From Actinomycetota bacterium (lineage in GTDB: Bacteria > Actinomycetota > Actinomycetes > S36-B12 > UBA5976): a stretch of 34,145 nt of DNA. Shown piece by piece: positions 23,819 through 26,926 of the stretch. Positions within the stretch are counted from its first letter, which is position 1; the number at the start of each line of letters is the position of its first letter. The translations under genes and the position numbers were made by a program. The notes beneath the pieces were generated by a model. That model did no database searches. It saw only the letters and a program-made list of their open reading frames with translations, and was not told the DNA's origin. The stretch spans positions 1 to 34,145 of the forward strand of contig VGBH01000014.1 in NCBI GenBank assembly GCA_016870575.1, read 5' to 3'.

Positions 23819-24040
23819 GTGTCCAAAAAGGACGGTGCCATTGAACTGGAAGGCACCATTTTAGAGGCGCTACCAAACGCAATGTTTCGGGTGGAACTCG
23901 ATAATGGTCACAAAGTTCTTGCCCATATCAGCGGGAAGATGCGAATGAATTACATTCGAATTCTTCCTGATGATCGAGTAATCGTGGAACTTAGTCCCTA
24001 CGACTTAACTCGTGGGCGGATCATCTACCGCTACAAGTGA
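23819..24040 (+). CDS. infA: Translation initiation factor IF-1
   Basis: 73 aa, [69 protein letters not shown] start. Confidence 0.98.
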
Positions 24041-24053
24041 GGTAAAGAGCTTT

Positions 24054-24167
24054 ATGAAGGTACAACCAAGTGTCAAACCGATGTGCGACAAATGCAAAGT
24101 CATTCGTCGTCACGGTCGGGTGATGGTGATTTGCGAAAATCCTCGTCACAAACAGCGTCAAGGTTAA
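24054..24167 (+). CDS. rpmJ: 50S ribosomal protein L36
   Basis: Hand translation [37 protein letters not shown]; absent from the ORF track because it is only 37 aa. Confidence 0.97.
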
Positions 24168-24203
24168 AAACTAAATACTTCACGATCAACCTGATTGTGA
24201 TTA

Positions 24204-24308
24204 CACGAATGTTCGACCCTGTTAAGTGCCAACTAACAGACGAACCCTTTGTCAGAGGCGAAGGCTTACCCGGGCGGGTAGGACAACATTCGTGACCAGA
24301 GACCTCTG
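24204..24308 (+). promoter_or_regulatory. Candidate structured leader of rpsM (alpha operon): cloverleaf with loop-tail pseudoknot
   Basis: P1 CACGAAT(GTT)/(AAC)ATTCGTG; P2 GTTCG/CGAAC plus CTGTTA/TAACAG; P3 CCTTTG/CGAAGG; P4 TACCC/GGGTA; P3 loop CAGAGG complementary to downstream CCTCTG (24303-24308). Confidence 0.6.
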
Positions 24309-24331
24309 CTAACGAAAGTGAGTAACCGCCC

Positions 24332-24709
24332 ATGGCAAGACTTATTGGTGTTGATCTTCCGCGCGATAAGCGCTTGGAAGTAGCACTAACTTATGTGTAC
24401 GGCATTGGCCGCACTAGAGCTGCACAAATGTTGAAAGCAACTGGTATTTCACCAGATCTTCGAGTTAAAGATATGTCTGATGATCAACTATCTCAACTTC
24501 GCGATTACATCGAAGCAAATTTCAAAGTTGAGGGTGATTTGCGCCGCGAAGTAACAGCAGACATTCGTCGCAAAATTGATATTCAAAGTTACCAAGGCAC
24601 TCGCCACCGTAAAGGATTGCCAGTTCGAGGTCAGCGCACTCATACCAATGCTCGCACACGCAAAGGACCGCGTAAGACTGTTGCGGGCAAGAAGATTGCA
24701 ACGAAGTAA
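24332..24709 (+). CDS. rpsM: 30S ribosomal protein S13
   Basis: [34 protein letters not shown]. Confidence 0.98.
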
Positions 24710-25797: not shown

Positions 25798-25877
25798 GCT
25801 GTTGGTAACAACAGCATCGATGTGGGAGCAACCCCGCCTCACATCATCCGAGACGCGACACCATATAGCGGGTGTCG
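25798..25877 (+). promoter_or_regulatory. Three tandem hairpins between rpsD and rpoA
   Basis: GCTGTTG-gtaa-CAACAGC (25798-25815); GATGTG...CACATC (25819-25845); CGACACC-atatagcg-GGTGTCG (25856-25877). Confidence 0.6.
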
Positions 25878-25894: not shown

Positions 25895-26926
25895 GTGCTA
25901 ATTGCACAACGCCCTAACCTAACCGAAGAAGTTCTATCCGATACTCGATCACGTTTCGTGCTTGAGCCACTTGAGCCAGGTTTTGGTTACACGCTTGGAA
26001 ATTCCATGCGTCGTACCTTGCTCTCATCTATTCCAGGTGCTGCTGTTACCTCAATCCGCGTTGTGGGAGTTCTGCATGAATTTGGCACAATAGATGGTGT
26101 TAAAGAAGATGTAACCGAAATTCTGTTGAATATCAAGAATTTGGTCGTCTCAAGTGAGAATGACGAGCCAACGGTAATGTATTTACGCAAAGAAGGACCT
26201 GCTGTAGTTACTGCTGCAGACATTAATCCGCCAGCTGGCGTTGAGGTACACAATAAAGATTTGCATATTGCAACTTTGAATCCAGGCGCAAGCTTGGAAG
26301 TTGAATTTGTTGTTGAGCGTGGCCGTGGTTATGTGCCATCAACAATGAATAAGGGAACTGATCCTGAGATTGGTCGAATTTACGTTGACTCAATTTATAG
26401 CCCAGTTACTAAAGTTACTTACAAAGTTGAAGCAACTCGTGTTGAGCAGCGTACAGACTTTGATAAGTTGATTATCGATGTTGAAACAAAGCCATCAATG
26501 CTGCCACGCGATGCCGTTGCATCTGCAGGAAAGACATTAGTTGAGTTGTTTGGTTTGGCTCGTGAACTTAATCTTGATGCAGAAGGTATTGAAATTGGAC
26601 CATCAGCGTTAGATTCATTTGCTGCTGAGCAACTAAATATGCCAATTGAGCAGCTTGATTTAACCGTTCGCTCTTACAACTGCTTAAAGCGTGAGGGTGT
26701 ACATACTGTTGGAGAGTTGATGACTCGCTCAGAAGCGGATCTATTGGATATTCGTAATTTTGGGCAAAAGTCAATTGATGAAGTTAAAGGTAAGTTGGCG
26801 ATGTTGGGCCTATCACTAAAAGATAGTCCAGCTGGATTTGATCCAACCAAAGTTGCTGGATACTACGACGAAGTTGATGAAGATGAGCTAGATAGTGAAG
26901 TTTACGTTGAAGACGAGAAACTCTAA
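25895..26926 (+). CDS. rpoA: DNA-directed RNA polymerase subunit alpha
   Basis: 343 aa, [34 protein letters not shown]; alpha-[28 protein letters not shown] start. Confidence 0.99.

Follow-up and report, generated by a model that had tools for sequence, protein, structure and literature searches.

A cloverleaf-pseudoknot RNA upstream of rpsM across the class Actinomycetes, probably a ribosomal-protein leader of the alpha operon

The spacer between rpmJ and rpsM

The window, meaning the whole 34,145-nucleotide stretch of DNA analysed here, makes up one contig of a 1.25 Mb genome and carries, according to its list of open reading frames, the gene order infA, rpmJ, rpsM, rpsK, rpsD, rpoA, rplQ, truA. 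The rpmJ stop codon ends at 24167 and the rpsM ATG is at 24332. An earlier note, made from this single sequence, had described the 164-nucleotide spacer between them (24168-24331) as folding into a cloverleaf with a pseudoknot between the P3 loop and the tail. Its spacer length was correct, and the strings it quoted for P1, the parts of P2, P3, P4, the loop CAGAGG and the tail CCTCTG were all found at their positions in the window. The features are listed below, with pairing values taken from relatives.

24204-24213, + strand: 5' strand of P1, CACGAATGTT, pairing with 24285-24294 over 10 bp; aligned by covariance model, with 6 of the 8 modelled pairs changing on both sides in relatives.
24214-24218, + strand: junction J1/2, CGACC, conserved as CG(A/U) in the alignments and overlapping the lower P2 stem of the earlier note.
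24219-24239, + strand: P2 hairpin CTGTTA/TAACAG, read from the sequence; 85% paired, two-sided changes at 6 of 7 pairs.
24240-24245, + strand: junction J2/3, ACGAAC, consensus ACGNCAC (alignment A2, columns 47-53).
24246-24264, + strand: P3 hairpin CCTTTG/CGAAGG (24246-24251 and 24259-24264), loop TCAGAGG; 96% paired, two-sided changes at 5 of 6 pairs.
24253-24258, + strand: pseudoknot strand CAGAGG within the P3 loop, covarying with the tail; 92% paired, two-sided changes at 5 of 7 pairs.
24265-24282, + strand: P4 hairpin CTTACCC/GGGTAGG (24265-24271 and 24276-24282), 7 bp with one G-U; 95% paired, two-sided changes at 6 of 7 pairs.
24285-24294, + strand: 3' strand of P1, AACATTCGTG, on the same basis as the 5' strand.
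24303-24308, + strand: pseudoknot tail CCTCTG, ending 23 nucleotides 5' of the rpsM start and covarying with the P3 loop.
24314-24322, + strand: presumed ribosome-binding region GAAAGTGAG, judged from its sequence and its position relative to the ATG at 24332.
24332-24709, + strand: rpsM (uS13), the first gene under presumed control of the leader, from the list of open reading frames; a uS13 homologue was located in 138 of 167 genomes from the order to which the window belongs.
24721, 25164, 25895 and 26944: rpsK, rpsD, rpoA and rplQ, respectively, the genes 3' of rpsM in the list of open reading frames.

Folded as a single sequence, the spacer has a z-score of -4.2, and none of 200 shuffles was as stable. 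For the core (24204-24294), the cloverleaf as corrected here has a folding energy of -29.7 kcal/mol versus -26.1 kcal/mol for the fold of the earlier note, while the unconstrained minimum is a mixed form at -36.2 kcal/mol, a comparison that energy rules without pseudoknots cannot decide. The single-sequence fold also places a local hairpin, CAGA/TCTG, around the tail (24297-24308), which was rejected as the sister genome (L003) does not preserve it.

Between rpmJ and the leader, the window additionally contains a 9-bp hairpin (TCACGATCA/TGATTGTGA, 24180-24200), and the sister genome has a hairpin of other sequence (TTTGCAAAC/GTTTGCAAA) in the same place. One family of the order (f6) and nearby named metagenome-assembled genomes (MAGs) carry, 5' of the cloverleaf, a hairpin in which a region resembling GGGGAGA(C/T)AACCC is conserved (L026, L030, L056, L058, L059, L132, L137).

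Comparative evidence for the fold

The regions upstream of the uS13 homologues located in the order were read, and the spacers of relatives were found to share a common layout consisting of P1, CG(A/U)CC, P2, ACGNCAC, P3, A, P4, ACY, the 3' strand of P1 and a tail complementary to the P3 loop. An alignment of 20 relatives, from which the window and its genus were left out, was then scored against a hand-written structure. In this alignment 92.0% of cells pair and two-sided changes occur at 28 of 35 pairs, so that the compensatory substitutions for which the earlier note had proposed searching related rpmJ-rpsM spacers are present. The covariation score is 0.607 versus 0.207 in shuffles, and sliding the partner strand by 1-3 columns lowers pairing to 35-45%. 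Taken alone, the pseudoknot is 91.9% paired, with two-sided changes at 5 of its 7 pairs and 35 two-sided cells versus 10 in shuffles; for a helix this short, shuffles often reach the observed value on two of five measures (the number of two-sided pairs and the number of pair types).

These comparisons bear out P3 and the loop-tail pseudoknot as first proposed and revise the other helices. The seven P1 pairs originally drawn (CACGAAT/ATTCGTG, 24204-24210/24288-24294) form and covary, and P1 of the window is taken at the 10 bp to which the note had allowed it to extend, because P1 in relatives reaches the CG(A/U) junction. The upper part of P2, CTGTTA/TAACAG, is retained; its proposed lower stem, GTTCG/CGAAC, is not conserved and was discarded, as relatives have the junction strands CGACC and ACGNCAC there. 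P4 is real as TACCC/GGGTA (24267-24271/24276-24280) but extends from the 5 bp first given to 7 bp.

A covariance model built from the 20-relative alignment, with the pseudoknot not included, recovers the leader of the window (24204-24309) at a score of 40 bits and an E-value of 4e-9. Since the window was found by a model built without it, its leader counts as an independent member; the pseudoknot there is intact. At the level of the class, in a survey drawn from the better rpsM matches rather than as a random sample, a strict leader (a 6-bp P3 plus a Watson-Crick pseudoknot of at least 6 nucleotides) was detected in 73 of 100 spacers of at least 100 nucleotides, compared to 27 of 1000 dinucleotide shuffles; many of the remaining 27 spacers, read by eye, have a bulged or five-pair pseudoknot. 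Loop-tail complementarity of at least 6 was found in 73% of native pairs versus 17.5% when tails were swapped between species with different loops, which upholds the CAGAGG/CCTCTG pairing beyond the 20 relatives. GC-rich hairpins can pair accidentally, as the shuffled spacers with a P3-plus-pseudoknot match illustrate, yet chance pairing or a compositional artefact is refuted by the shuffle, slide and swap controls, leaving this explanation a negligible probability.

The pseudoknot is 6-8 bp long and its tail lies just 5' of the rpsM Shine-Dalgarno sequence; the distance from tail end to start codon has a median of 23 nucleotides and falls within 19-27 in 66 of 74 leaders. In GC-rich genera the tail is often ACCUCC and the Shine-Dalgarno sequence GGAG, which raises the alternative of an anti-Shine-Dalgarno switch, where a CCUCN tail not engaged in the pseudoknot would pair with the ribosome-binding site. 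Against this, the complementarity of tails to their own downstream region shows no native excess over that to other species' regions (mean run 3.58 vs 3.55), and the tail sequence instead tracks the P3 loop, making such a switch very improbable.

Distribution across the class Actinomycetes

The covariance model has matches in 134 of 166 genomes of the order and, a few weak extra matches aside, the best match per genome adjoins rpsM. The order itself is probably Nanopelagicales or a sister to it, as judged from the 83% DNA identity between a named Nanopelagicales MAG (L137) and another family of the order. In a sample of the phylum, every strong match lies upstream of rpsM and all are in the class Actinomycetes, a distribution much wider than one sequence could reveal. 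Named class members with the leader include Streptacidiphilus, Kitasatospora, Frankia, Cellulomonas, Sanguibacter, Xylanimonas, Microbacterium, Ornithinimicrobium, Kytococcus, Serinicoccus, Cutibacterium, Catellatospora and Phytoactinopolyspora, with some leaders of named genomes read by eye at model scores below significance. One large genus of the class (g42) is taken to be Streptomyces, an identification on which every leader called Streptomyces here rests, and one family (f10) is likewise taken to be Mycobacteriaceae, the basis for speaking of relatives of Mycobacterium. Conserved across the class, at a fixed place before rpsM, is a four-way-junction cloverleaf (P1-P4) with a pseudoknot between the P3 loop and the tail.

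In the Acidimicrobiia, Coriobacteriia and other outgroups surveyed, spacers are mostly shorter than 50 nucleotides and lack the leader. Within the class, it is absent from two members, Acidothermus (L142) and a Jiangellaceae MAG (L130). A small-genome lineage (f99) and similar lake MAGs (L125, L128, L131, L135, L232-L236) have a diverged leader with the loop ACCGGTAGG, the tail CCTTCCGG, an apparent P1 of GCGTGGTGC/GCACTGC and a mismatch or bulge inside the pseudoknot.

Proposed function

Ribosomal-protein leaders are generally recognised as conserved, covarying structured RNAs directly upstream of a ribosomal-protein gene, and such an RNA is what was found here. The stretch 24204-24308 is probably a cis-acting ribosomal-protein leader of the alpha operon acting in translational autoregulation, for which we infer both binding and repression. 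Excess ribosomal protein would bind and stabilise the cloverleaf-pseudoknot, which would then sit against the ribosome-binding site and block or trap initiation on rpsM; rpsK and, where present, rpsD would follow through translational coupling.

Attenuation is a mode used by other ribosomal-protein leaders, and a transcription attenuator was weighed for this one. The leader was searched for a site resembling an intrinsic terminator, and no terminator-like hairpin with a T run was found; the pseudoknot, moreover, abuts the ribosome-binding site. Because the leader holds no intrinsic terminator, translational control appears more likely, and an attenuator is, if anything, even less credible than the anti-Shine-Dalgarno switch. 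Another explanation is a structural spacer without a protein ligand, which would set mRNA processing or stability or uncouple rpmJ translation from that of rpsM. This is in keeping with its location between neighbouring genes that probably share an operon and with ligands that are candidate proteins at present. Bound RNAs, however, typically look like this one, which has an intricate four-way junction, junction strands that are unpaired yet conserved, and a covarying pseudoknot whose spacing to the start codon is nearly constant. Many lineages outside the class also do without the leader, and a purely structural role is considered improbable.

Candidate ligands

In order to weigh S4 as the ligand, the presence of rpsD in the operon is informative. 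In 17 surveyed class operons rpsK is followed directly by rpoA with no rpsD, and 13 of these 17 keep the strict leader, which is therefore retained independently of S4 being encoded in the operon. No convincing leader copy was found at the unlinked rpsD loci examined, where three weak detector matches were unrelated sequences. In genomes without an operon rpsD, the unlinked gene is of a divergent type, 42-47% identical to that of the window, compared to roughly 54-79% for the operon copies of other class members. The divergent type also lacks the N-terminal cysteines of the window's S4 (L114-L124, L258-L268), and one Streptomyces-like genome (G338) has both rpsD types.

Retention of the leader in operons lacking rpsD, together with the leaderless unlinked rpsD copies, weakens the case for S4 and casts doubt on a straightforward counterpart of the S4 control known from E. 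coli. S4 may control rpsM-rpsK in trans, with its own gene exempt; alternatively, the ligand may be S13, S11 or L17. As a single ligand, uS4 (in cis or in trans) is still the top candidate, tentatively held; uS13 comes next as a somewhat unlikely choice, bL17 and uS11 are each unlikely to the same degree, and some other protein is a still poorer prospect. To our knowledge, neither uS13 nor uS11 has been described as a leader ligand, and we know of no proven leader for S13, S11 or L17.

A specific form of the L17 alternative, in which bL17 would recognise a site that the rpsM leader has in common with the known L17 leader before rplQ of the same operon, arises from a match of the L17-Actino-Proteobacteria family (RF03132) to P3 and P4 of one Streptomyces rpsM leader, at 33.9 bits versus a threshold of 34.9, and true RF03132 elements are present in the same class. 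No such match occurs in seven other leaders of that genus or in Kitasatospora and Streptacidiphilus, however, the family with a real L17 leader (f93) has a different P4 at rpsM, and the window has no rplQ leader, the gap there being 18 nucleotides. Across the window and the other rpsM leaders tested, no RF03132 match exceeded the gathering cut-off. The resemblance may offer a weak lead towards L17, and a shared bL17 site is judged rather unlikely. The sub-threshold match lies at 1526-1574 on the minus strand of L095, where the P4 loop GTACCTGGTACGGC resembles the L17 hairpin GGTACCTGATACGGCC.

A plausible but tentative reading is that this class-wide leader, absent from Rfam, has as its ligand another alpha-operon protein, uS13 or uS11, rather than S4. 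If true, the persistence of the leader at rpsM after rpsD leaves the operon would be accounted for, and in a major bacterial class the master regulator of the alpha operon would be a different one.

A second hairpin upstream of rpoA

A remark in the literature (PMC3207917) prompted a search for a second copy of the leader before rpoA, which was not found; a different hairpin lies there. In the window it occupies 25856-25877, with the stem CGACACC/GGTGTCG and the loop ATATAGCG, ahead of the rpoA start at 25895. The loop consensus is A(A/U)AU(A/G)G(C/U)G, closed by C-G, the stem shows compensatory changes with positions 3-6 from the loop 93-96% paired, and the distance from loop end to rpoA start is usually 22-29 nucleotides. 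Among loci where the rpmJ-rpsM spacer is long, 82 of 87 have the loop motif, versus 3 of 50 others. This hairpin has no Rfam match and may serve as a leader of its own for the RNA polymerase alpha subunit.

Comparison with known leader RNAs

Searching positions 24000-24450 of the window against Rfam 15 (cmscan, E up to 10), as the earlier note had suggested for Alpha_RBS, gave no match to the leader by Alpha_RBS or any other family, including the S4 leaders of Clostridia, Fusobacteriales, Bacteroidia, Flavobacteria and Firmicutes. The same families gave nothing but two chance eukaryotic matches on the leaders of eight relatives. A GUAA rRNA mimic is conserved in the S4 leaders of Fusobacteriales and Firmicutes, and no conserved unpaired GUAA was seen in core alignment A2. 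Among the 20 leader candidates of Eckert and Weinberg (2020), S4 leaders were predicted before rpsM in Clostridia and Fusobacteriales, with no actinobacterial rpsM leader in their Table 1 (PMC7247131); these likewise precede rpsM-rpsK-rpsD-rpoA-rplQ but belong to other lineages and have other structures.

The L17-Actino-Proteobacteria leader belongs to the same operon and partly to the same class, and approaches its threshold in the one Streptomyces leader, yet it sits before rplQ and consists of simple tandem hairpins, unlike the cloverleaf-pseudoknot before rpsM. In the mycobacterial rpsO (S15) leader, a pseudoknot upstream of the initiation site is needed for repression and the ligand is proven (PMC10931766, PMC8470358). 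That leader is also actinobacterial with its pseudoknot upstream of the ribosome-binding site, and differs in its gene, its structure and its proven ligand.

In M. tuberculosis, the rpsM 5'UTR is 216 nucleotides long and highly expressed, and regulation together with rpoA has been speculated (Arnvig 2011, PMC3207917). This 5'UTR corresponds to the one studied here, in an actinobacterium less closely related to the window, and the main text of that report gives no structure, pseudoknot, distribution or ligand. Beyond it, no description of an actinobacterial rpsM leader was found in a literature search that largely did not reach subscription journals, and because of that coverage the novelty is provisional, as is the view that this class-wide rpsM leader has so far been uncatalogued. 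In mycobacteria, hardly any work has addressed how ribosomal proteins control their own synthesis (PMC8470358). With the leader, a class to which Streptomyces and, probably, mycobacteria belong gains a widespread candidate regulatory RNA, and the balance of an operon that also encodes the RNA polymerase alpha subunit becomes directly testable. The leader further bears on whether S4 kept its regulatory role once rpsD was no longer part of the operon, a point raised previously (PMC10931766).

In E. coli, S4 is the repressor of the alpha operon (PMC10931766). The Alpha_RBS leader lies at the same locus before rpsM, with a pseudoknot by the ribosome-binding site and, as presumed here, translational repression. 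Its pseudoknot contains the ribosome-binding site, whereas the actinobacterial tail ends a median of 23 nucleotides before the start codon, upstream of the Shine-Dalgarno sequence, and the actinobacterial RNA is a cloverleaf with a P3-loop/tail pseudoknot that is kept in operons without rpsD. The covariation, the class-wide distribution and the lack of any Rfam match, Alpha_RBS included, strongly support the suggestion that actinobacteria have a leader of their own at this locus, independent of the E. coli pseudoknot. The best reading is that the leader would work like the E. coli S4 pseudoknot while being unrelated to it.
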